The position numbers and the translations under genes were made by a program. Under the pieces are notes generated by a model. That model saw only the letters and a list, made by a program, of their open reading frames with translations, did not search any database and had not been told where the DNA came from. Positions 4,797 to 17,041 of a stretch of 64,000 nt of DNA are shown here, piece after piece. The DNA comes from Bradyrhizobium sp. Gha (GTDB lineage Bacteria > Pseudomonadota > Alphaproteobacteria > Rhizobiales > Xanthobacteraceae). The stretch lies in NCBI RefSeq assembly GCF_900113735.1, contig NZ_FOQM01000017.1, positions 62,001 through 126,000 of the forward strand, in the 5' to 3' direction. The first letter of the stretch is position 1. Every line of letters begins with the position of its first letter.

Positions 4797-5565
4797 CTAA
4801 GGGACAGTGTGCTCCACCGGCACGATGCTAAATGACTTGAATGCGAGACGAGCCTTGAAAGCGATGGCCTGAGGTTGATAGGTGCGTAACAACTTTCGCA
4901 CCGCCCGCAACTGCAAAGAGCAACGCGCGCCTATAATTACCTCGTGCAAAATCAGGGAGCTCGAAAACGGACAAAAGCAGAGCGATCCATCCTGGTCCAT
5001 GTCCTTCAAATCGACTAGTCGGCGAACTTCATTCTCGTAAGCCCACGCTTTTGCTTTTGTATAAAGTAGCCGTTCCTGCAATGCTGTCGGTAGCTTCGTT
5101 GGGTCAGGATCATCCTTGGCCAAGTTCTGCCCTCAATCGGCTGTCGTTGTATTCTATCCGCTGAATAGCACTTCGAGGAAGCGTGAACCCCAAACAGATG
5201 CCTTTGTGGCGATCTGCGTAATGGCTCCACATAACGGGATCAATCCAGTTCTCGCTGAAGGACACGAACCCCTTTGTGTTGTCGACCTTGCTCTTGAAGT
5301 AGCGACCGGCCTTCCGTGATTGAGAGGCGTTGAAATTGAGTGCCAGCAGTTCAAACGGATCGTTGCACTCGGAGAAGCGAGCTACCTTCAAACGCCCGCG
5401 CTCGATGTTGCTGTAGGCGTGTTGAGCGGTCGTGAAATGGTAGAGCCGGATGTGATCTGCGCTCGGTGGCAGGCAACACCAAGCGCTTCCCATCCGGTGG
5501 TCGTAGCCGGCTTTGACCCATCGCTGTCGGTATCTTTTGTGCGCCGCCATAATCATGTTTCTCAC
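4797..5565 (-). pseudogene. DUF2971 family protein, frameshifted
   Basis: Two minus-strand frames together encode one DUF2971 protein. The first part (151 codons, from GTG at 5565) carries the family's N-terminal pattern (LYHFTTAQHA..., then NDPFEL and the WSHYADRHKGICLGF block). It stops at 5110-5112. The second frame, open from about 5123 to 4797, gives the expected continuation (LLYTKAKAWAYENEVRRLV). The switch needs one base skipped near 5115-5125, so a single-base insertion is the likely cause. The combined length of about 255 residues fits the family. DUF2971 genes occur often in defence and mobile islands, with no settled function. A sequencing error is possible. Confidence 0.7.
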
Positions 5566-5719
5566 AATGACGCTCGTTGCTATTAACCAAGCTTTGCGTC
5601 ACTAAGCCGAAAGTCGCTTGAACAGTAAGCTTGCTGACCTTCACGAGAGCATTTAGCTTGAACACTTTCATGCGGCATAATGGGTGCGGCACGACAGCCG
5701 AGTAGAGCGGAGCTTTTCG

Positions 5720-6811
5720 ATGGTTCTGTTTGCTGTAAGTCAAAACAAATTGGAGCCGGTTTCTGAGACGTCCTACGTGAACGAGGCAATTCTAGAGCGG
5801 AAACATCTTCAAGGCCTCTTAAAACAACACATTGCCCCGCTTGGTGACGACTTGATGGTCCTATGCGATGAGTTCTCGAATTGGCAGGACAGCTCACGGC
5901 GTATCGACATCCTTTGCCTTACTAAGGAGGCTCAGTTGGCGGTGATCGAACTCAAGCGCACTGAGGATGGTGGGCACATGGAGCTTCAGGCGATCCGCTA
6001 TGCAGCAATGGTGTCTAGCATGACGCTCGATCAAGCCGTGCTCGCGCACTCACATTATTTGAATGACGATCCCGAACGAGCCAAAAAAGAAATCTTGGAA
6101 TTTCTTGAATTCGATACCATCGAGGAAGTTGAGCTTTCTGGGGATGTCCGGATCGTTCTTGCGGCTTCGAATTTTTCAGACGAACTTATTACGTCGGTTA
6201 TGTGGCTGAACAAGAGCGGTCTGGACATCACCTGCATTCGCCTGAAGCCATATAAGCTGGACGGAAAGGTTTTGATCGACGCCACACAGATCGTGCCGCT
6301 GCCCGAGGCCATGGACTACACGATAAAAATTCGCGAGCAAAGTAGAGAGAAGAGTAAGGTCAAAACGGCAAGACAGGAGATATTCAAAAAGTTTTGGGCT
6401 CAGCTCATTGAGCGGTCCATTGCTAAGAAAATCTCGCTACTCGCAAATCGTAGCACATCGACTGACCATTGGATTTCCGCCGGGATCGGTCGAGCCGGCT
6501 TCTGGCTTAGCATTTCTCTCACCGAAGACCGTACCCGAGTGGAATGCTACATCAGTGTGAAGGAAGGCGAACAAGCCAGCCTTGCAGCGTTCAAAAAGCT
6601 TTACGACCAGCGCGAAGCGCTAGAAGCGAAATTTGGAGCATCGCTTGATTGGCAGGAGTTGCCAGGCCGCAAGGGATGCAGGATTTGTCGGGACCTTGAT
6701 GGAGGATGGCGGACGCCTGAAGCTGACTGGCCTGCGATGCAGGATGCGGCACTTGATACGCTTGTTCGGTTGGAGGCAGCCCTGCGTGGACCGATACAAC
6801 AAATTGGATGA
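5720..6811 (+). CDS. DUF4268 protein with nuclease-like N-terminal domain
   Basis: A 363-residue protein. The N-terminal half has a PD-(D/E)XK-like arrangement: D63 in RRIDIL and E77-x-K79 in AVIELKR, resembling the NucS/DUF91 nuclease core. The C-terminal half (about residues 220-355) resembles DUF4268, a domain often attached to such nuclease-like modules. ATG 5720 is preferred over upstream GTG 5684 because GGAG is placed about 7 bases before it. The gene is divergent from the broken DUF2971 gene and stands in a run of defence-type genes, so a restriction-like role is reasonable but unproven. The domains are family recognition by eye; DNA cleavage is inferred. Confidence 0.65.
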   Translation: MVLFAVSQNKLEPVSETSYVNEAILERKHLQGLLKQHIAPLGDDLMVLCDEFSNWQDSSRRIDILCLTKEAQLAVIELKRTEDGGHMELQAIRYAAMVSSMTLDQAVLAHSHYLNDDPERAKKEILEFLEFDTIEEVELSGDVRIVLAASNFSDELITSVMWLNKSGLDITCIRLKPYKLDGKVLIDATQIVPLPEAMDYTIKIREQSREKSKVKTARQEIFKKFWAQLIERSIAKKISLLANRSTSTDHWISAGIGRAGFWLSISLTEDRTRVECYISVKEGEQASLAAFKKLYDQREALEAKFGASLDWQELPGRKGCRICRDLDGGWRTPEADWPAMQDAALDTLVRLEAALRGPIQQIG

Positions 6812-7144: not shown

Positions 7145-8065
7145 CTAACTGGCGGCTGCGTAGACAAGGTTATTTGGAGAGAGGGTCTTTTCGCCAGACC
7201 ATCGATATGCGGTGAGGAAGCCGCCCTTTGCCACGCTGAAATCTAAACAGCATCCATATTCGTTTGAAAGCGCTGGCTTACCGCGCAGCCAGTAGTGGCC
7301 GAAGAAGACTGGCTTCTCGTCTTTGTAGAAGTAATCCCTCGTTAGAGGCAGATCAGGCAAGTCGGCCTCCTTTCCGTCCATACCGAGTGCAGCGCTTCGA
7401 TACGTGACGGCCGCAGGGTCCCACCAGCGAATGCGGACATGGTGGCGCTTGTAGCCATCTTTGTCGAAGAAGAAATGTCCTGGCGGTAGTGGGATTTCAG
7501 GCCCTTTCAGTAGAACCTCGGCTGCCTCATAGGCAGCAGATCCGCGGCGGTTAGCCAGCAAAAATCCCTCTGGAGTGAACCGATGGGAGGCGTCCAGGCA
7601 GCCAGCAAGCGCAGTTTGTGCAGGGGCGTTCCAACAGGCGTGGACCACACGCAAGCCGGGGAGATCGAGCCAGACGGGCAGGCCCCTGAACCAATCCAGC
7701 GCCTGCTTGTGAGCAGGCGAGCCTTCTCCGATCTGTTCAAGAAATTCCTTGGTCTGGTGCTTGTTCTTTTCGTCGTGTGGCCGAAGAAAGCCACCATTTT
7801 CGTCAGGCTCTGCCCAACCGAGCCCGTTGAATTCGTGGTTGCCCATCACGGCCAAGGCAGCTCCCGCATCACACATATCTTTTGCAATGCGCAGCACGTC
7901 GAGCTGTTTGGGACCACGGTCGATGAAATCACCAACGAAGATGACGCGACGGTCCGGATGCCGAAAGGTGCCGTCCTTGTCGCTATAACTCATTCGAGTT
8001 AGCAGCCGCCGAAGCGCGTCTGCGTGGCCATGGATGTCGCCGATGATGTCGAATTTGTCAGGCAT
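7145..8065 (-). CDS. metallophosphoesterase (PrpE/ApaH-like)
   Basis: A 306-residue calcineurin-like phosphoesterase. The metal-binding signatures are complete and in order: GDIHGH (residues 9-14), GDFIDRG (45-51) and GNHEFN (75-80), followed by a VVHACW His motif near residue 165. The layout matches PrpE/ApaH-type enzymes that hydrolyse dinucleoside polyphosphates or phosphoproteins; the exact substrate cannot be read from sequence. The ATG at 8065 directly precedes the first motif at the usual distance. It stands about 90 bases after the HNH gene on the same strand and may be the last gene of the hsd-HNH transcript. A link to defence is suggested only by position. Confidence 0.8.
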   Translation of the reverse strand: MPDKFDIIGDIHGHADALRRLLTRMSYSDKDGTFRHPDRRVIFVGDFIDRGPKQLDVLRIAKDMCDAGAALAVMGNHEFNGLGWAEPDENGGFLRPHDEKNKHQTKEFLEQIGEGSPAHKQALDWFRGLPVWLDLPGLRVVHACWNAPAQTALAGCLDASHRFTPEGFLLANRRGSAAYEAAEVLLKGPEIPLPPGHFFFDKDGYKRHHVRIRWWDPAAVTYRSAALGMDGKEADLPDLPLTRDYFYKDEKPVFFGHYWLRGKPALSNEYGCCLDFSVAKGGFLTAYRWSGEKTLSPNNLVYAAAS

Positions 8066-8154: not shown

Positions 8155-9366
8155 CTATCCGGCAGGGGGAATTAACGTGTCGAGATCGCGGCAGGCACCC
8201 CCTATGTGCACCATGGCGTGGCAGTTCGCGCAGACTATTGCGAGGTCCGCTAGTGTCAGTTTTTTCCCCGACTTCGGGGCCTTGCTAAGTGGCTCTCGAT
8301 GGTGAACGTGGGCATAGTTGCGACCAATGTCACCATACCGACGAAGGAAATCAAAGCCGCAGCCTTTGACCTCGCAAATCAGATGGCCATGATTTTTTGC
8401 AAGAGCTTCTTCGATCTTCTTCGCTCGAAATTTGTGCTCGCGTCTTCGCTGGGTGATTAGCGCTGTGCGCTTCCAAGCCTCACCCTCATGGGCGCTATAC
8501 TCAATCTCCTGGTAGCCTTCGTTCTTTTCCGGCTTCGCCCCACGCTCCAGAAGGTGTTCACCTGTATCAAAGTCATAAGACGTGACCGCCCAAGCGACCT
8601 CGTCAAGAATGCGTCCCTTTGTGCGGTCTTTACCGGCAACGACGACAACCCTAATCGGCAGACCCTGGTTATAAGCCTTCGCGATGTGTTCATCGGCTCT
8701 TTCTGCACGCCTCACGCGTACCGGATGCGGGCTCCTTGATCTCCGGCGATAATTCTTGATCTGAAAAATACGTCCGTTCTCTTCCTCTAACTCATCGTGC
8801 CATAAGCACAAGACCACGAACTTGTCCGGCTTTTCAAATGCCCATTGGTAGCAGTATTTTGGATTTGCAGCGGGCGGCCCTTTATAGTTCGCCCAATCAC
8901 TGACATCGATCTTCAGTTCCTTGAGAATATCAAAGACTAGACGCTTTCGGTCTGGACGAAGCTGTGCAAGTGAGGCAATTTTAGTTCCTAAAATCAACTT
9001 GCGTCCCTTGGGGGTCAGCTCGAAGAGACCCTTACTATTTTTCCGGATTGCCACGCAGCCTGCGTGAAGCATTGCCTTCATCACCCCTCGATCCGGATAC
9101 ATGAACCCGTCTTCAAGAGGAATTCCGGAGCCGTAAAAATGCGGCCCCGCGATTTCAACATACGCAGTTAGATAGGCGATGCTGCGGTCACTATTAAAAG
9201 CCGGTGTCGTGCCCTTTTGTGCCAGCCACCACGCTTCACTGTAGCCATCCCGATTTGGCTCTTTTTTTAATGTCTTGTTCGTTGATGCGGGCTTTTTATC
9301 TATCCGCTGGCAGAATTCATCCAGTATCGATCTCGCCTCGGCAAAGGTCTTAATCTTAAAGGTCAT
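8155..9366 (-). CDS. HNH endonuclease linked to the hsd operon
   Basis: A 403-residue protein with a C-terminal HNH nuclease: a CxxxxC-containing strand (CEVKGCGFDF), then HVHHREPLS and CANCHAMVH, the expected His-His-Asn-His order with zinc-type Cys pairs. The N-terminal 230 residues (including a WAFEKPDKFVVLCLW segment) look like a separate recognition domain that I cannot name. The start at 9366 is preferred over 9390 because GGAG is spaced 8 bases from it. The gene begins 34 bases after hsdR on the same strand, so it is probably co-transcribed with the type I system. It could be a McrA-like modification-dependent enzyme; this is inference. Confidence 0.75.
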   Translation of the reverse strand: MTFKIKTFAEARSILDEFCQRIDKKPASTNKTLKKEPNRDGYSEAWWLAQKGTTPAFNSDRSIAYLTAYVEIAGPHFYGSGIPLEDGFMYPDRGVMKAMLHAGCVAIRKNSKGLFELTPKGRKLILGTKIASLAQLRPDRKRLVFDILKELKIDVSDWANYKGPPAANPKYCYQWAFEKPDKFVVLCLWHDELEEENGRIFQIKNYRRRSRSPHPVRVRRAERADEHIAKAYNQGLPIRVVVVAGKDRTKGRILDEVAWAVTSYDFDTGEHLLERGAKPEKNEGYQEIEYSAHEGEAWKRTALITQRRREHKFRAKKIEEALAKNHGHLICEVKGCGFDFLRRYGDIGRNYAHVHHREPLSKAPKSGKKLTLADLAIVCANCHAMVHIGGACRDLDTLIPPAG

Positions 9367-9400
9367 CGCCGATACTCCACAATAGAACAACTACAGTCCG

Positions 9401-11719
9401 TCATCCGCCTGGTTTTGTCGTGCGCTCATAAAGGTGTCGTTGGAAGCCGACAAAGGCGTCCCGGATCACTCCTACACTGCCGAGTGCAGACGTTGCGTCG
9501 TCAATCGTGTGATACTTCAGTTCGAGCAGGCTCCCCAACTTTTCCTGATCGAGTTCATTCACGCCTTGTTGGACGTACTGCGTCAGAACGAAATCGAGGA
9601 AGGCCTGCAGTTTGGCATCATAGTCCGACATGATGGACAATCGGCGCTCCTGCACTCGGTCCAGCCGCGTGATCGGCGGGAGTGAAAATGCGATGTAGGC
9701 CAACACATCAAACACGTCACTCTTGTCGGCGTTGATCATCCGGCCAACCTCACCCAACTGTTCAGGACCGAAGCCTTTCTCGGTGAGCCCCTGCAGCAAC
9801 GCCTTGCGGGTGTCTGGCTTGCTCCACAAGTTTCGCAGTTCGTCTTCGTCCTTGAACAGTCGCGGCAATTCGCCAAACAACTTCTCGATCATCTGGTTGG
9901 CCGATATCGGCTTGCCGTCAGGGCTCCAGTAGCTCGTCGCCATCATGCTCTGGATGGTTCGTTCCTTCCCGTCCGCCAGCCTGATCTTGATTTGCGCCGG
10001 GCGCTCAGTCTGTTCGCCGCCCTCCTTCTTGTCCCTTTGCTCTTCTCCTTTTGCTTGGGTACTTCCGGCCTCTCGCGCAATCGGCTCACCATCCCATTCC
10101 GGGTCATTGAAGTGCTCGTACGCCTTCACAAAGTCGTAGATCGTGAAATGGTCCTTGCCGTCGAAGAGGCGCGTGCCGCGTCCGATGATCTGCTTGAACT
10201 CGATCATGGTCCCGACCGGCCGCAGCAAGACGATGTTGCGGACGTTGCGTGCGTCGACACCGGTCGACAGCTTCTGCGACGTGGTCAGGATCGTCGGGAT
10301 GGTCTTCTCGTTGTCCTGAAACGTGCGCAGCCATTGATCGCCCAGCGCACCGTCTTCCGCCGTCACACGGACGCAGTAATTCGGATCGCTACTGGTCTTG
10401 ATTTGGTTGATTGCATCGCGAACCACGCGCGCATGCTCCTGCGTGGCGCAAAAGACCAACGTCTTCTCCCGCTGGTCTATCTGGTCCATGAATAGTTTCA
10501 CCCGATAACGCTCTCGCTCCGATATTTCGATAATGCGGTTAAACTGCGTTTCGGTATAACGCTTGCCTTCTTCGACCTCGCCCTCGATGACGGTATCGTC
10601 GGGCGTATAAACATAGTCGTCGAGGGTGGTCGCTATTTGCCTGACCTTGAACGGTGTCAGAAAGCCGTCGTTAATGCCGTCTTTCAGGGAATAGGTGTAA
10701 ACCGGCTCGCCGAAATAGGCGTAGGTATCGACGTTATCCCGTCGCTTCGGCGTAGCCGTGAGGCCAAGCTGCACTGCGGGCGAGAAATAGTTCAGGATGT
10801 CGCGCCAGTTGCTCTCGTCGTTGGCGCCGCCGCGATGGCACTCGTCGATGATGATGAAGTCGAAGAAATCCTTCGGGTAGTCGCCGAAATAAGGTGACGG
10901 TTGACCGTTCTGGTCGGTGCCGCTCATGAAGGTCTGGAAGATCGTGAAGAAGATGCTGGCATTCTTCGGCACGCGGCCCTTCTTGCGAATTTCGTCCGGC
11001 TTGATGCGTGCCAGCGCATCGTCGGGGAAAGCGGAAAATGCGTTGTAGGCTTGATCGGCCAGGATGTTGCGGTCGGCAAGAAACAAGATGCGCGGACGCC
11101 GCTCCGGCTTCCGCGACAGGTTCCAGCGACTTTGGAACAGCGCCCAAGCGATTTGAAAAGCGATAGCTGTCTTGCCGGTGCCGGTGGCGAGCGTCAGCAG
11201 AATGCGCTGCTTGCCTACGGCAATAGCCTCCAGCGCATTCTCTATTGCATTGTGCTGATAATAGCGCGTCTGCCACGCGCCGCCGCGTTCCTCGAAAGGC
11301 ACGGCGGCAAAGCGGTCGCGCCACTCGTTCTTCGTCTTGAAAACCTCGGCCCAGAGTTCATCCGGCGTCGGATAGTTATCGACGTAAGCTTCGGCGCCGG
11401 TCGCCATGTCGACGCGATAGATGCGTCGGCCATTGGTGGAAATGGCAAACCGTGCTTGAAGCCGCTGCGCATATGCCTTCGCCTGCGGAAGACCATCCGT
11501 ATCTCCCTTGTCACGCGCTTTTGCCTCGATCACAGCTAACTTGTGATTTCGGAACGTAAGCACGTAGTCCGCGATCTCGGCCTTGCCTCGTCGTCCCGCC
11601 CCTTCGATCCGACCTGGGCAGATTTCCTCGCGACGGACCCGGCTGTCCGCGACTACGCCCCAGCCCGCTGACCGCAGTGCGGGATCGATTAGCTCGGCCC
11701 GGGTTTCGGCCTCGTTCAC
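9401..11719 (-). CDS. hsdR: type I restriction endonuclease, R subunit (HsdR)
   Basis: A 772-residue motor and nuclease subunit. The N-terminus carries the HSDR_N nuclease core (D51, then E65-x-K67 in VIEAKAR). The helicase part has Walker A ATGTGKT (178-184), DECH box (292-295) and TATP (321-324), followed by the second RecA-like domain with the QIIGRGTRLF motif VI. The C-terminus resembles the EcoEI-type R C-terminal domain. With HsdM and HsdS it would translocate and cut unmodified DNA. It overlaps hsdS by 4 bases, indicating translational coupling. No frameshift or missing motif was seen, so the subunit looks functional. Order and size fit the EcoEI-like subclass. Confidence 0.93.
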   Translation of the reverse strand: MNEAETRAELIDPALRSAGWGVVADSRVRREEICPGRIEGAGRRGKAEIADYVLTFRNHKLAVIEAKARDKGDTDGLPQAKAYAQRLQARFAISTNGRRIYRVDMATGAEAYVDNYPTPDELWAEVFKTKNEWRDRFAAVPFEERGGAWQTRYYQHNAIENALEAIAVGKQRILLTLATGTGKTAIAFQIAWALFQSRWNLSRKPERRPRILFLADRNILADQAYNAFSAFPDDALARIKPDEIRKKGRVPKNASIFFTIFQTFMSGTDQNGQPSPYFGDYPKDFFDFIIIDECHRGGANDESNWRDILNYFSPAVQLGLTATPKRRDNVDTYAYFGEPVYTYSLKDGINDGFLTPFKVRQIATTLDDYVYTPDDTVIEGEVEEGKRYTETQFNRIIEISERERYRVKLFMDQIDQREKTLVFCATQEHARVVRDAINQIKTSSDPNYCVRVTAEDGALGDQWLRTFQDNEKTIPTILTTSQKLSTGVDARNVRNIVLLRPVGTMIEFKQIIGRGTRLFDGKDHFTIYDFVKAYEHFNDPEWDGEPIAREAGSTQAKGEEQRDKKEGGEQTERPAQIKIRLADGKERTIQSMMATSYWSPDGKPISANQMIEKLFGELPRLFKDEDELRNLWSKPDTRKALLQGLTEKGFGPEQLGEVGRMINADKSDVFDVLAYIAFSLPPITRLDRVQERRLSIMSDYDAKLQAFLDFVLTQYVQQGVNELDQEKLGSLLELKYHTIDDATSALGSVGVIRDAFVGFQRHLYERTTKPGG

Positions 11720-12963
11720 TCCGCTGCCTCTTCAAGCGCCTGCGACGGTGGCGAGGTTAGTTCACCGGCGAAAGCCTTATCTAATACGGATCGCTTCAGC
11801 GCAATCAGCTCATTCATCTTCCGCCGATAGGTCTCCTCAAGTCGCGCTGCAAGATGGGCAGTGCTCTCCATTGCGTTTGCTAACGCCTGTTGATCACGGA
11901 TCTTTGGTGGAAATGAAATTGGCACTTGCTTCAACAAGCTTGCTTTAATCCCAACGACCGTCGCGCCGGTGCCGCGTTTGAGTATTTCCGCCTGCGTCGG
12001 ACGCGACATAAGCGCGTACTTAAGGAAAGTACGATCAAGCACCTGATCGTTAGGCTGCATCGTGATCAACCGTTGTCCGATGACGACCGTCTCGTCTGTG
12101 TCGAGCTGCGCAACGTTTCCTAAAGGAGCTTCCGTCGTAAACAGCACATCGCCCCTTCGCGGATAGCCTCTAGTCATCCACTTGTCGTAAACTCCCGGAT
12201 CGATGAATTCCTCCGGATCACGCTGCACACGGTTCATTTTCACGTTTTTTGCTGTTATCAATCGAATGCCCGTTTCCCTTTTTGGGGGCGTTTTCCCTCG
12301 ATAATCCACGAACCTAACTTCTTTCCCTAATTCTGACGTTGTCCATCCAGCGCATTTCTGAGTGAAAACGGAATTGAGATAGCTCTCGAATAGCTCGCCG
12401 GCATTTTTGAGATTTCTCTCGGCGTTGGCAATCGCGGTCGCTAACCCAGCAAATGCCTCGTCCAAAATTGCAACGATACGATGTTGTTCTCTGAGTGCTG
12501 GAAACGGTATTCTGCAATTCTCGATAAATTCTTTTGAAACTCGCTTATGCCCGACGGCGCCGCTCATGGTCCTTTCGCCTTCGGCCCGAAAGCTATCCTG
12601 CGACAGAAAGTAGTAGAGATATTCGCTGCTCAAGCTTTCAGTTGGCCGAAAGACAATGTACTCGCTCGAACCAAAGCCAATTCCATTTGTTAGCCCTTTG
12701 GCGATCCCGAGCTTCCCGTTTTCGAAGCAGGGCGTGATCTTTGCCAGCAACACATCTCCATCTGCGAAGTATGTGTAACTGCCAGCAACCTCGGCGAGCT
12801 TGCGCTCGGCTTTGGGCTCGAGAAATTTCAGGCCAATACAAAGGTCTTCCATCGGAACGAAAGAAACACGATCACCATCGGTTAACTTGCGCTTCGCTTC
12901 GCTCTTTGGCGGCCTAATATTGCAAACTTCACGAAGTGCCTTAGTCGGCCAGAGAGCGCTCAC
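11716..12963 (-). CDS. hsdS: type I restriction-modification specificity subunit (HsdS)
   Basis: A 415-residue specificity subunit with two target-recognition domains: the first about residues 1-165, the second about 210-370 (starting GWTTSELGKEVRF). Each is followed by a helical conserved spacer (LREQHRIVAILDEAFAGL; then the C-terminal ETYRRKMNELIALKRSVLDKAF). This two-TRD plan recognises a bipartite DNA site; the site cannot be predicted here. It overlaps hsdM at 12960-12963 and hsdR at 11716-11719, so the three subunits are coupled in one operon. Local composition is A+T-richer than hsdR, as is common for swapped TRD modules. Confidence 0.92.
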   Translation of the reverse strand: MSALWPTKALREVCNIRPPKSEAKRKLTDGDRVSFVPMEDLCIGLKFLEPKAERKLAEVAGSYTYFADGDVLLAKITPCFENGKLGIAKGLTNGIGFGSSEYIVFRPTESLSSEYLYYFLSQDSFRAEGERTMSGAVGHKRVSKEFIENCRIPFPALREQHRIVAILDEAFAGLATAIANAERNLKNAGELFESYLNSVFTQKCAGWTTSELGKEVRFVDYRGKTPPKRETGIRLITAKNVKMNRVQRDPEEFIDPGVYDKWMTRGYPRRGDVLFTTEAPLGNVAQLDTDETVVIGQRLITMQPNDQVLDRTFLKYALMSRPTQAEILKRGTGATVVGIKASLLKQVPISFPPKIRDQQALANAMESTAHLAARLEETYRRKMNELIALKRSVLDKAFAGELTSPPSQALEEAAE

Positions 12964-14417
12964 AACATCCTCCCAATGTCCTTGAGGATTTCGGCGCTTT
13001 CGACATCAAGTGCAACCATCTCGGCAATGATGTCCTTTGGATCGCGCAGCTCGGCGTCATCGACCTTGTTGGGGTTCTTCACCGCGAGGTCATAGGTTGC
13101 CTTGTCGATAGCCTTGACATCGACCGTCCACGAATTCTCGCTGTCCTTGAGCTTTGCCTGTAATGCGACGAAATCCTTGAGGTCCTCGTCGTTGAGGGGG
13201 TTGGTCTTACCGAGATTGCGGCCGGGATCGAGTTTATAGAACCAGAGTTTACGCGTCGGTGCCCCCTTCTCGAAGAACAGCACCACGGTCTTAACGCCCG
13301 CGCCGAGGAAGGTGCCGCTTGGCATGTCCAGCACCGTGTACAGGTTACAGTTCTCCAGAAGTTCTTTCCGCAGCGCAACCGATGCATTGTCGGTATTCGA
13401 GAGGAATGTGTTCTTGATAACGATGGCGGCACGGCCGCCAGCTTTTAGCGATTTGATGAAGTGTTGAAGAAACAGGAAAGCCGTCTCGCCGGTCTTGATC
13501 GGGAAATTCTGTTGTACTTCTGGACGCTCCTTGCCACCGAAGGGCGGATTGGCCAGCACCACGTCGAAGCGATCCTTGTTTTGGATGTCGCCAATGTTCT
13601 CAGCGAGCGTGTTGGTGTGAATGATGTTTGGCGCCTCAATGCCGTGCAGGATCATGTTCATGATGCCAATCACGTAGGCGAGGCTCTTTTTTTCCTTGCC
13701 GAAGAATGTCTTCTCTTGAAGCGTCTTGAGATCTTTCGTCGATAGTTTGCCGCGCTCGTGGGTTAAATACTCCAACGCCTCACACAGGAACCCAGCCGAA
13801 CCACAGGCACCATCATAGATGCGCTCGCCGATAGCTGGTTTCACGACTTGGATCATGGCGCGGATCAGCGGACGCGGCGTGTAGTATTCGCCGCCATTTC
13901 GACCCGCATTGCCCATGTTGCGGAGCTTCGCTTCGTAGAGATGCGACAGCTCGTGCTTCTCCTGCTGCGACCGGAAGCTGAGTTGGTCGACGAGTTCAAG
14001 CGCGTCGCGCAGCGAATAGCCGCTGCGGAATTTGTTCTCGATCTCGGAGAAGATTTCGCCAATCTTGTATTCGATTGTGTTCGCGCCCTCAGCGCGACTA
14101 CGGAAGCCTTTCAGGTAGGGAAACAGCTTGTCATCGACATACGCAATGAGGTCATCGCCAGTCTTGGCCTTGTCGTGGTCGAACGAGCCATCTTTCTTCT
14201 TGGGCGCGGCCCACACGGACCAGCGGTGTTTTGCGTCAATAATCGGCTGGTATGTCTTGCCTTCGAGCTCGGCCTTCTGCTCGTTGGCCCGCTCAAGATC
14301 ATCAAGATACTTCAGAAACAAGATCCACGAGGTCTGCTCGGTGTAGTCCAGTTCCGTGGCGCACCCGGCTTCCTTCCACAGAACATCGTCGATATTCTTA
14401 AAAGTTTGTTCGAACAC
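12960..14417 (-). CDS. hsdM: type I N6-adenine methyltransferase (HsdM)
   Basis: A 485-residue methyltransferase subunit. The N-terminal helical HsdM domain (about 5-140) is followed by the catalytic domain with GEYYTPR (176-182), the SAM-binding motif DGACGSAGF (202-210) and the N6-adenine motif NPPFGG (290-295). It methylates adenine in the HsdS target to protect host DNA. The GTG start at 14417 gives the standard family N-terminus (MFEQTFKNIDDVLW) and has a GGGGGA ribosome-binding site 8 bases upstream. It is the first gene of the hsdM-hsdS-hsdR run, overlapping hsdS by 4 bases. The promoter must lie in 14418-14732. Confidence 0.94.
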   Translation of the reverse strand: MFEQTFKNIDDVLWKEAGCATELDYTEQTSWILFLKYLDDLERANEQKAELEGKTYQPIIDAKHRWSVWAAPKKKDGSFDHDKAKTGDDLIAYVDDKLFPYLKGFRSRAEGANTIEYKIGEIFSEIENKFRSGYSLRDALELVDQLSFRSQQEKHELSHLYEAKLRNMGNAGRNGGEYYTPRPLIRAMIQVVKPAIGERIYDGACGSAGFLCEALEYLTHERGKLSTKDLKTLQEKTFFGKEKKSLAYVIGIMNMILHGIEAPNIIHTNTLAENIGDIQNKDRFDVVLANPPFGGKERPEVQQNFPIKTGETAFLFLQHFIKSLKAGGRAAIVIKNTFLSNTDNASVALRKELLENCNLYTVLDMPSGTFLGAGVKTVVLFFEKGAPTRKLWFYKLDPGRNLGKTNPLNDEDLKDFVALQAKLKDSENSWTVDVKAIDKATYDLAVKNPNKVDDAELRDPKDIIAEMVALDVESAEILKDIGRML

Positions 14418-14732: not shown

Positions 14733-16346
14733 TCATTCTGACTGAGGCGCGGGAGCTTGCGCCGTATTGGCGGCAGATGTTCCTTCCTCAGACTGTGGCT
14801 GCAATGAACCGAATAGCTCGAACCATTCCAGGTTTTCGTTCTCTAAGTAAGCCGTAGAAGCCAACTCAAGCATTGGGGAGGGCGGCTGATTTAGATAATG
14901 AACCGCGGCTCCGCTGCGGCTCTTGCGCCTTCCTTTTTGAAAGATGTCACGATAGCGAAGGGGAGAAATTCCGAGGAATGGCAAAAAAGACACTTTCCCC
15001 GCCGTGATCTTCTCAATCTCAATTTCGTTTTTGTGTAATTCCTTTGCGCGGCTCTTAGGATAAGGCTCCATGTAGACAACGCACTTAATTCCCGCGGCGA
15101 GGATGTGCTTTGTGCAATTGTGACATGGAAATGTGGTTACGAACAGGTTGCTATCCTTTACGCTTCGCCCAAGCCGAGCCGCATCACAGATCGCGCACAT
15201 TTCAGCGTGAACAACTCGTCCGAACTCTGTCAGATCGAGCACGGCGCACCTGGCCAGTGGACCGTCTTTCCCCTCGGTGCCAGGCGCCTTCTTGCGGGTG
15301 AACTCTTCGACCATTTCAGCAGGGTTACCCACCGACATTGCCTTCGCAGACAGTAGTCCCGCCTCACTCATCTTATCAAAAAGCTCTCGCAGGAGTTCTG
15401 TCTTCACGAGATCATTCGGATCGTACCCCAATCTAACGTCGCGAAAATCAGGTTGCTCAAGGTCCCAGTAGGTGCCGCCGTGAGCCTTCGGAACTTCGTT
15501 GCAACCCTGCGTGATTAGTTCGCCATCATCGGTGAAAATTGCTGCGCCCACTTGGCGTGAAAGATCACTAGAGCGCAACGAGGCTGATTTCGCTGCATAC
15601 ATTCCATATTCGGCTTTCGAAGGCGCGATGTCAGTCCGACCAAAAAATGCTTGAATGAAGCGAGTGATTTTCTCTTCCATTTCTGGGCGAGATAGCCCGT
15701 CAATGAAAACGTCGGCGAGGTGAAAAGTCTCGCGAACATTCTGGCCGAATTCTTCGTCGTCTTCTCTGGCGTCCTTTTCAATGAGTTCGAGTGCTTTGCA
15801 GGAAATCTCATAAGCTGGAGTTGCTGGCGGCAAACTGCGTTGGAGGCGCTCTTCCAGCAATCTCTGCCGTTCTTCAGCGGAGCCGTACGCAGAAATTAGA
15901 ACGAACTGTTTGCCATAGACACGACGCAACAGCATGGCTTCGTCTGGGCGTTTTAGTTGCCGCACTACATACGCTATGGCACGGTCAGCTATCTTATTCC
16001 GGTCGCCCGATATTCTCTCTCGCTCATCGCCGATGGCGCGAAGTGCAATCCGCGCCATTGTAGAGAAGTCGGAAAACTCCTTGCAGAGCGCGTTCGCGTA
16101 GTTGATTTTAAAATTTACTTCAGTGTAGAAGTTTTTGTCGGAAGGGACGGGGACAGGGTATCGTTGGAGTTCGTAGCGCTCTTCCCTCAACATCTCTTTC
16201 GTCAGGTGTACGGTGTGTGGCTCGTACCCGACTGCACGGAGTGCAGTTGCTAGGGTTTCGCAAATAGCCTCAACATTGACCCCCATAGGTCCGACAACGC
16301 CGAACACAAGTTCCGGAAGGATTTTTTGTCGTGAAGCGGTCGCCAT
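14733..16346 (-). CDS. antiphage dCTP deaminase (AvcD/DcdV-like)
   Basis: A protein of about 540 residues in two parts. The N-terminal part resembles the P-loop nucleotide-kinase-like domain of the family, with a Gly-rich loop (GVVGPMGVN) lacking the canonical Walker Lys. The C-terminal part is a zinc cytidine-deaminase domain: the HAE motif (VVHAEMCAI, about 383-385, numbered from a GTG at 16355) and PCHNC (410-414), preceded by DLSRQVGAAIFTDDGELI, typical of deoxycytidylate deaminases. Known relatives deaminate dCTP/dCMP on infection and starve phages of nucleotides. Size, domain order and the neighbouring type I RM support this assignment. ATG 16346 is chosen; GTG 16355 is possible. The Vibrio system includes an inhibitory RNA (AvcI) upstream; none is recognised here. 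Confidence 0.8.
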   Translation of the reverse strand: MATASRQKILPELVFGVVGPMGVNVEAICETLATALRAVGYEPHTVHLTKEMLREERYELQRYPVPVPSDKNFYTEVNFKINYANALCKEFSDFSTMARIALRAIGDERERISGDRNKIADRAIAYVVRQLKRPDEAMLLRRVYGKQFVLISAYGSAEERQRLLEERLQRSLPPATPAYEISCKALELIEKDAREDDEEFGQNVRETFHLADVFIDGLSRPEMEEKITRFIQAFFGRTDIAPSKAEYGMYAAKSASLRSSDLSRQVGAAIFTDDGELITQGCNEVPKAHGGTYWDLEQPDFRDVRLGYDPNDLVKTELLRELFDKMSEAGLLSAKAMSVGNPAEMVEEFTRKKAPGTEGKDGPLARCAVLDLTEFGRVVHAEMCAICDAARLGRSVKDSNLFVTTFPCHNCTKHILAAGIKCVVYMEPYPKSRAKELHKNEIEIEKITAGKVSFLPFLGISPLRYRDIFQKGRRKSRSGAAVHYLNQPPSPMLELASTAYLENENLEWFELFGSLQPQSEEGTSAANTAQAPAPQSE

Positions 16347-16420
16347 TAGGAACACAACCTTAGTATTTCAATTGTAGCGGTTAGCTGCGAGAGTGTGCTG
16401 ATTCGCTCCCGGGGGAGAAC

Positions 16421-16600
16421 ATGGCAAAAGTCTCAATTCGCAAAGATGATTATGAGCGCGTCCTAGAAATAGCTGAACGCGCTGCGAAGCGTACCAACTC
16501 AAGGGTTGTTGTTGCGACTGATCGCCTTGATCTCCACGAACCGGCTGAGCGGGATCGTTTCACCAGAGACGATGAAGGCGTGGCGGTGAAGTTCTCGTAA
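16421..16600 (+). CDS. 59-residue protein divergent from the deaminase gene
   Basis: A small ORF (MAKVSIRKDDYERVLEIA... ending VAVKFS) with a strong ribosome-binding site (GGGGGAG about 4-6 bases before the ATG). It is rich in charged residues, with a predicted N-terminal helix (about residues 8-25). No family is recognised. It starts 74 bases from the deaminase start on the opposite strand, so the two share one promoter region. It could be a regulator or partner of the deaminase, an antitoxin-like protein, or an unrelated island gene. Coding status rests on the ribosome-binding site and position only. Confidence 0.45.
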   Translation: MAKVSIRKDDYERVLEIAERAAKRTNSRVVVATDRLDLHEPAERDRFTRDDEGVAVKFS

Positions 16601-17041
16601 GAGGGCATGGCGCGTCCGAACTTACACAACCATCAGACGATTGCCACTAGCTCTTCGCTTTGCCCGATCTTGGCTGCCCAAGGGGGCAGAAGGGGTGTAT
16701 GTGCGGGTGTATGTAACGTCACGCTTATTCATGATTTAGTATATATTACAGGTACTTAGAGTTCTGCTGGGCGGACACTCTCTCCGCCATCTATTATCTG
16801 TCCAGCCCGGACACATAGGTAACGGATCGTACCTGAGACATGGGTGACAACCTCGTGCCGAACGGGTTGTCGAGGGGTTGCAGGGTTTTCTGCTCCAGGT
16901 CGACGTCGGTTCTGGCAGGCCGGCATAGCAGCGCCTTGAGGCCAGCGCGCGGCAGGGCAGTTGTCGCCTATCTCGCGGGTTGCTCAGAATGTGCAGGCCA
17001 CACCGTGATTCACGCGCTTGGGCAGCCGTGGAGGCGCTCAC
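16601..17041. other. junction between island and ABC-transporter region, no intact gene
   Basis: About 440 bases without a convincing gene. It contains a tandem GGGTGTATGT repeat (16693-16702 and 16705-16714), a small palindrome (GGCGGA...TCCGCC, 16770-16788) and a likely insertion-sequence end (16799-16850). G+C content rises sharply after about 16800. This is the best candidate for the right boundary of the island. No tRNA or integrase gene was found here. Confidence 0.45.
16799..16850. mobile_element. probable IS481-type terminal remnant
   Basis: The stretch beginning TGTCCAGCCCGGACAC contains two related tracts, ACATAGGTAAC and ACATGGGTGACA, about 25 bases apart. This pattern resembles the ends of IS481-family elements in Rhizobiales as I remember them. 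No intact transposase is present. Identification is by resemblance only. Confidence 0.35.

Follow-up and report, generated by a model that had tools for sequence, protein, structure and literature searches.

The 64,000-nucleotide stretch of Bradyrhizobium sp. Gha DNA analysed here (the window) encodes a predicted anti-phage dCTP deaminase, a small gene transcribed divergently from it and, directly downstream of the deaminase, type I restriction genes (Table 1). The earlier note had placed the deaminase at the correct coordinates, and the gene lies on the minus strand. Read on the plus strand, this segment is full of stops, whereas the minus strand is a single open frame of 537 aa. The ORF is real and far from a chance occurrence. 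The protein has 537 aa when read from the ATG, or 540 aa from an alternative GTG upstream, at 16355.

Table 1. Features at the deaminase locus and elsewhere in the island, in window coordinates.
Feature	Position	Strand	Evidence or remark
Anti-phage dCTP deaminase (AvcD/DcdV family), predicted; 537 aa, ATG start	14733..16346	-	Reading frame, Pfam, PADLOC, NCBIfam, family alignment
P-loop-like GVVGPMGVN, residues 16–24, without Walker lysine	16275..16301	-	Alignment, 57 members
Zinc motif HAE (H380, E382)	15201..15209	-	Invariant in 57/57
Zinc motif PCHNC (C408, C411)	15114..15128	-	P407, C408 and C411 invariant in 57/57
Divergent intergenic region between small gene and deaminase, 74 bp	16347..16420		
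TGATTCG, a GANTC (CcrM) site (GANTC 16400–16404) in extended GcrA-type form, small-gene sense	16399..16405	+	Starts 22 nt upstream of the ATG
Shine–Dalgarno sequence GGGGGAG of the small gene	16411..16417	+	ATG 3 bases after
Small gene transcribed divergently, 59 aa (partner of type A); may inhibit or regulate the deaminase	16421..16600	+	Stop codon 16598–16600
Right attachment-like repeat CACTCTCTCCGCCA, 14 bp	16776..16789		Identical to the 3' end of tRNA-Ser(GGA)
HsdM type I methyltransferase	12960..14417	-	Pfam, PADLOC
HsdS specificity subunit	11716..12963	-	Pfam, PADLOC
HsdR (EcoAI family)	9401..11719	-	Pfam, NCBIfam
HNH endonuclease protein	8155–9390	-	Directly downstream of hsdR
Metallophosphatase	7145–8065	-	
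DUF4268 protein	5684–6811	+	
Weak DUF2971 match	5110–5565	-	

The main Pfam match of the deaminase is the PF00383 deaminase domain (6.6e-17), and a second deaminase model, PF14437, is barely over its cut-off. The PADLOC dCTPase model matches at 2.8e-152, and the NCBIfam equivalog NF041025, 'anti-phage dCTP deaminase', exceeds its cut-off of 400 with 428 bits and covers residues 12–473. NF041025 matches twice more in this genome, but only at 29.8 bits over 49 positions and at 25.8 bits over 62 positions. The AvcD/DcdV-like identity proposed earlier is thus upheld by two curated profile libraries, as well as by zinc-motif residues that are invariant throughout the family (see below). On this sequence evidence the assignment as an anti-phage dCTP deaminase is supported, with deamination of dCTP/dCMP and protection against phage as its predicted functions; dCTP is the presumed substrate of the window enzyme. 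When solved structures were searched by sequence, the best matches were dCMP deaminases over approximately 55 residues (2.9e-9) and no full-length match was found. An AlphaFold model built from three sequences had a pLDDT of 37.

A housekeeping dCMP deaminase of the ComEB type, with no role in defence, would have in common with this protein the PF00383 catalytic fold and the zinc motifs of the C-terminal domain. ComEB-type enzymes, whose model is 151 positions long, are not known to have an N-terminal P-loop-like domain. The ComEB model gives only 56.5 bits on the window deaminase, far under its cut-off of 219.45, against the 428 bits obtained with the anti-phage equivalog. A closer relation to housekeeping dCMP deaminases had been named in the earlier note as the finding that would speak against its reading, and these scores point the other way. 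The distribution of the family is also patchy, with genes that pass the NF041025 cut-off present in 16 of the 195 genomes searched from the genus, in 23 of the 397 from the order and in 11 of the 398 from the phylum (overlapping sets, in each of which the genome under study is counted). Such a pattern matches the expectation for defence genes. Moreover, the gene lies inside an integrative island alongside restriction genes. We regard a housekeeping enzyme as extremely improbable.

The family alignment comprises 57 rows, namely the window, two named genome loci, 46 other genome loci, seven plasmid records and one record from a phage collection. Duplicates were removed before counting (L052 and L099, taken as L004; L001 and L098, taken as the window). 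Partial or split loci (L022–L026, L057–L060 and L075–L079) lie outside the alignment, two of them, L022 and L024, having later re-entered the analysis as L101 and L102. Loci with housekeeping-type matches only (L002, L003, L027–L035, L061–L063 and L080–L089) were left out, as was the partial one (L006) of the three loci retrieved by a profile search of genome contigs. Rows L071–L074 are included, although they score under the NF041025 cut-off. H380, A381, E382, P407, C408 and C411 are invariant in all 57 deaminases. The HAE and PCHNC motifs described previously are indeed present, and the residues then given as H383, E385, C411 and C414 are H380, E382, C408 and C411 counted on the 540-aa form. 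The GVVGPMGVN loop had been correctly described as lacking the Walker lysine, but this is no peculiarity of the protein: G22, the glycine before the would-be lysine, is found in 57/57 rows, and lysine occupies neither of the two following positions in any of them (0/57). With the lysine missing from every member, a loss specific to this branch was rejected.

The closest named relative of the deaminase is encoded by Bradyrhizobium sp. 149 (locus L004, 85% identity), and the Microvirga lupini protein is 62–63% identical. In a maximum-likelihood tree, the window deaminase falls within a clade of 22 rows (support 100/99). A second, quicker tree, to which eleven rows were added and from which the far rows L072–L074 were left out, recovered this clade with 24 rows and a support of 0.998; Zymomonas (L092) branches deepest in it.

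The left end of the island is marked by a tRNA-Ser(GGA) gene located outside the window (contig C57, 58518–58607) and followed by a tyrosine integrase. The 14-bp copy of the tRNA 3' end near the small gene has an E-value of only 0.07 when taken alone, but it sits right at the module edge, and the G+C content near it rises from 54% to 65% between adjacent kilobases. The repeat and the rise in G+C thus place the deaminase and the small gene at the right end of an integrative island of approximately 20 kb, inserted at tRNA-Ser and carrying a type I restriction system. The defence-island setting claimed previously is confirmed by the restriction genes, which lie directly downstream of the deaminase and inside the integrative island. 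The DUF4268, DUF2971-like, metallophosphatase and HNH genes of the island are possibly further defence genes. In Bradyrhizobium sp. 149, a tRNA-Ser(CGA) gene (2488–2577 of locus L004) is found near the small gene, and the module may thus be carried by mobile elements that target tRNA-Ser sites.

The small gene is kept across nearly all of the deaminase clade. Under a strict rule (ATG start, 40–110 aa, a Shine–Dalgarno match of at least 4 bases and a start no more than 230 nt away), a divergent small ORF was detected in 19 of the 22 clade rows, in one of the 35 rows outside (L056) and in 405 of 2200 Markov-shuffled upstream regions. The rule was defined only once the small ORFs were known from a survey upstream of all members, and the Fisher p of 4e-11 for clade versus outside is therefore purely descriptive. 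When GTG and TTG starts were allowed, the counts became 20/22 and 7/35. Since 18 of the 35 outside rows share genus, family or order with the window, the small gene tracks the deaminase clade and not host taxonomy. Two of the clade rows missed by the strict rule, L004 and L005, have the small gene with a weaker ribosome-binding site. The other, Zymomonas (L092), has instead a different divergent ORF of 95 aa, whose cysteine/histidine cluster resembles, in our judgement, a SWIM-type zinc finger. Nine loci were added later. Two of these (L101 and L105) belong to the clade and both have the small gene, while L102 retains a match to no more than residues 1–11 of the small protein; among the remaining six, L110, outside the clade, has an unrelated ORF that satisfies the strict rule, and L117 complies only if a GTG start is allowed. 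In Pararhizobium gei, the small gene is annotated as a hypothetical protein.

Codon comparisons demonstrate that the small ORF is a real gene under protein-level constraint. The start codon was picked by eye in each of 23 loci. The only unsaturated pair, L012/L014, gave a dN/dS of 0.11, and 17 of its 27 differences fell at third positions (p 1.5e-3). Third-position differences were likewise in excess between the window and L004 (34/62, p 4e-4; pN/pS 0.27) and between the window and L017 (40/72, p 9e-5). In nine other pairs synonymous sites were saturated, and the most distant pair, L018/L020, had no third-position excess.

A shallow AlphaFold model of the small protein (pLDDT 69.7) predicts a strand at residues 4–7, a helix at 8–25, a second strand at 36–39 and a disordered tail, and Foldseek retrieved no match to it at E<=0.001. 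None of the four small proteins queried matched Pfam or PADLOC, and Rfam gave no match. No PHROGs match was obtained for the two clade small proteins queried, no relative was found in the viral contigs scanned, and no antitoxin or DNA-binding domain was recognisable in the small proteins queried. Two candidate resemblances were rejected as likely chance. One was to the YhbY/CRM RNA-binding family (17.8 bits against a cut-off of 78.5, E 0.0035), whose NCBIfam model matches only two of four type A members at all; the other was to huntingtin-interacting protein K (E 0.039).

Four sequence types of the small protein (A, B, C and D) can be distinguished. There is no clear homology between them, and a single common mechanism is therefore an assumption. 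The type of the small protein follows the sequence of the deaminase. All 20 small-protein pairs detected at E<0.01 were within a type and none was between types, the one cross-type match being at E 0.033. Because the types were partly drawn from sequence, the fairer test is the Mantel correlation between deaminase identity and small-protein score, which was 0.694 over 21 loci (near-copies L014 and L004 excluded), a value reached in none of 5000 shuffles. A type A profile searched against 265 genomes of the genus retrieved six matches at E<=0.01: four beside a deaminase, one beside a deaminase relic (G093) and one in G996. The last (E 0.006), within a 266-aa frame at a locus with no deaminase match, was taken as chance.

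Damaged loci bear on the pairing as well. In G093 (L129) a broken copy of the small gene adjoins the deaminase relic, and in G143 (L102) the deaminase is split and the small ORF is recognisable over its first 11 residues only. Such joint breakage suggests that the two genes are lost as a pair. G073 (L101), whose type A match is one of the four beside a deaminase, speaks against this, as the small gene is intact whereas the deaminase match stops at residue 381–394, within a frame of 459 aa. The broken deaminases L023, L025 and L026 had no type A small-protein match.

GANTC, the CcrM motif, occurs between the small gene and the deaminase in 19 of 23 loci, against 8.7 loci expected from Markov shuffles. 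Its density is 12.4 per kb in these intergenic regions and 2.28 in the flanks, a ratio of 5.45. The AT-rich motif TANTA had an even higher ratio (6.5), and other divergent intergenic regions of the genome under study were therefore taken as the control. GANTC was found in four of 20 such regions (p 5e-5), a control that covers parts of one genome and relies on a home-made gene caller, and in 14 of 43 upstream windows of deaminases outside the clade (Fisher p 2e-4). One study reports that GANTC is over-represented at least 1.5-fold in the intergenic regions of most alphaproteobacteria and proposes that GcrA acts at YGAKTCK (PMC7987155). This extended form is present in the small-gene direction in 10 of 23 loci and in the opposite direction in three of 23; the expectation of 0.71 loci is optimistic because the flanks used are mostly coding. 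Four matches in the genome exceed the GcrA cut-off. One protein with a RAMA domain, a domain also borne by CcrM, is taken to be of the CcrM kind. A consensus scan of 16200–16800 found no sigma-70-type promoter. From these motifs we infer GcrA/CcrM control of the small-gene promoter, as a lead.

The earlier note had supposed that this branch may be controlled differently from the Vibrio system, and the conserved divergent small gene, which it did not mention, supports that view. In Vibrio, AvcD is inhibited by AvcI, a noncoding RNA that is encoded beside it and binds it, and is freed when phage stops host transcription; it is active if made without its partner (PMC10511110, PMC12409362 and PMC9455884). 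With this published precedent, a cognate inhibitor is the simplest reading of a small protein that co-varies with its deaminase. By analogy, we consider it somewhat probable that the small protein is such an inhibitor, a protein antitoxin that replaces the AvcI RNA. The deaminase and the divergently transcribed gene for a protein of approximately 60 aa would then form, in this clade, a two-gene module. In healthy cells the small protein, a labile cognate inhibitor, would keep the enzyme off. Phage shut-down of host transcription would lead to loss of the inhibitor and free the deaminase. The enzyme would then deaminate dCTP, and probably also dCMP, to dU nucleotides and starve phage DNA synthesis. 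The logic would be that of AvcI/AvcD, but with a protein encoded on the opposite strand in place of a co-oriented RNA. Against the antitoxin reading stand the lack of a detected antitoxin fold, the divergent arrangement of the genes, the absence of such a gene in L092 and the breakage in G073, which is not joint.

A transcriptional regulator would account for some of these features. The small protein could be an autorepressor or activator of a common divergent promoter, with the deaminase controlled by its expression level or by a phage trigger. The divergent layout itself, the roughly 63–148 nt that separate the genes in the 23 loci and the enrichment of the GANTC/GcrA-type motif between them are consistent with this, as is the fairly well-predicted helix of the modelled small protein. 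However, partner type tracks the deaminase sequence although the intergenic DNA diverges, and both the search for DNA-binding domains and the Foldseek search of the small-protein model came back empty; regulation of this kind seems to us unlikely. The Vibrio precedent itself would favour control by RNA, in which the transcript of the small gene, or an RNA from the deaminase strand, would be the AvcI-like antitoxin and the ORF incidental. This has a low probability in view of the third-position excess and the dN/dS of 0.11, which indicate constraint on the protein, and of the location of the conserved gene on the strand opposite to that of AvcI. Furthermore, the RNA upstream on the deaminase strand shows no unusual structure (z -1.51, with equal or greater stability in 14 of 200 shuffles), and Rfam detected no AvcI-like RNA in the window at E<=1, a weak negative as we know of no Rfam family for AvcI.

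Pairing and co-variation suit an activator as well as an inhibitor, and the small protein might be an accessory sensor that switches the deaminase on at infection. We consider this very unlikely, given that the published AvcD is active alone and inhibited by its partner (PMC9455884 and PMC12409362). In addition, an intact small gene beside a shortened deaminase, as in G073, is more easily tolerated if the small protein is an inhibitor.

The proposed inhibitor can be set beside known systems. The AvcID system of Vibrio, which pairs AvcD with the AvcI RNA antitoxin and has been called a type III toxin–antitoxin system, uses the same enzyme family and likewise has its partner element upstream; its partner is a co-oriented RNA, whereas that of the window deaminase is a divergently transcribed protein gene. 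Our comparison rests on the Vibrio plasmid members L094 and L095 rather than on the published V. cholerae and V. parahaemolyticus proteins. Both have the two-domain layout, lysine-less P-loop and zinc motifs of the window deaminase, which nevertheless belongs to a clade apart from them (35% and 31% identity, respectively). The Escherichia coli proteins L091 (IncI plasmid, annotated as deoxycytidylate deaminase) and L090 (4.6-kb plasmid, annotated as anti-phage dCTP deaminase) also have the same zinc and P-loop motifs, at 32% and 30% identity. Upstream of each lies a small ORF in the same orientation, with a C-terminal [KS]-[IL]-x-W tail, whereas that of the window is divergent. Type II toxin–antitoxin systems likewise combine a potentially toxic enzyme with a small, fast-changing partner protein under coding constraint. 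Type II antitoxins usually share one operon with their toxin, while the window pair is divergent and has no known antitoxin fold.

The off-switch that keeps nucleotide-depleting deaminases inactive in healthy cells has so far been described, in the literature accessible to us, only as the RNA antitoxin of Vibrio. Among the open-access matches listed, judged by title, start of the abstract and term counts, none was found to deal with a protein that partners dCTP deaminases, which does not prove absence. If true, protein-based control from the opposite strand, conserved across a clade of the enzyme, would mean that the switch has been swapped and the weapon left unchanged. The CcrM/GcrA-type motif, if functional, would couple the switch of a phage defence to DNA methylation and the cell cycle in the host.

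Small ORFs were also observed at the AvcI position itself, in the AvcID-like part of the family. In L064, L066, L090, L091 and L095, a co-oriented ORF of 57–74 aa ends in a C-terminal [KS]-[IL]-x-W motif. The ORFs of E. coli L118 and Klebsiella L123 have the same end, and those of E. coli L119 and L120 and of L065 do not. The co-oriented ORF pair of L090 and L123 gave a dN/dS of 0.29, and third positions account for 33 of the 67 differences (p 5e-3). The ORF rule alone is unspecific, being satisfied by 12 of 42 loci outside the small-gene clade and six of 24 inside it, and the result draws on the common tail and this one codon comparison. These data suggest that a peptide may also be made from the ORF at the AvcI position, which would be compatible with RNA-based inhibition. 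One could go further and suppose that dCTP-deaminase defence is generally run by small partner proteins. In the present clade the partner would be a divergently encoded protein antitoxin, with GcrA reading its promoter through CcrM methylation, and defence would thereby be linked to the state of the host chromosome, both its methylation and its replication. In AvcID-like systems the co-oriented ORF ending in [KS]-[IL]-x-W would likewise encode a protein that functions in addition to the RNA or in its place. We hold this wider scheme to be doubtful.

Small plasmids carry members of the family as well. Plasmids L090, L122 and L123 of E. coli and Klebsiella, of approximately 4.6 kb and with three to six annotated features each, encode an anti-phage dCTP deaminase, and the upstream small ORF was seen in L090 and L123. 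A total of 25 Klebsiella plasmid records match, with sizes of 4.6–9.3 kb among the matches listed.
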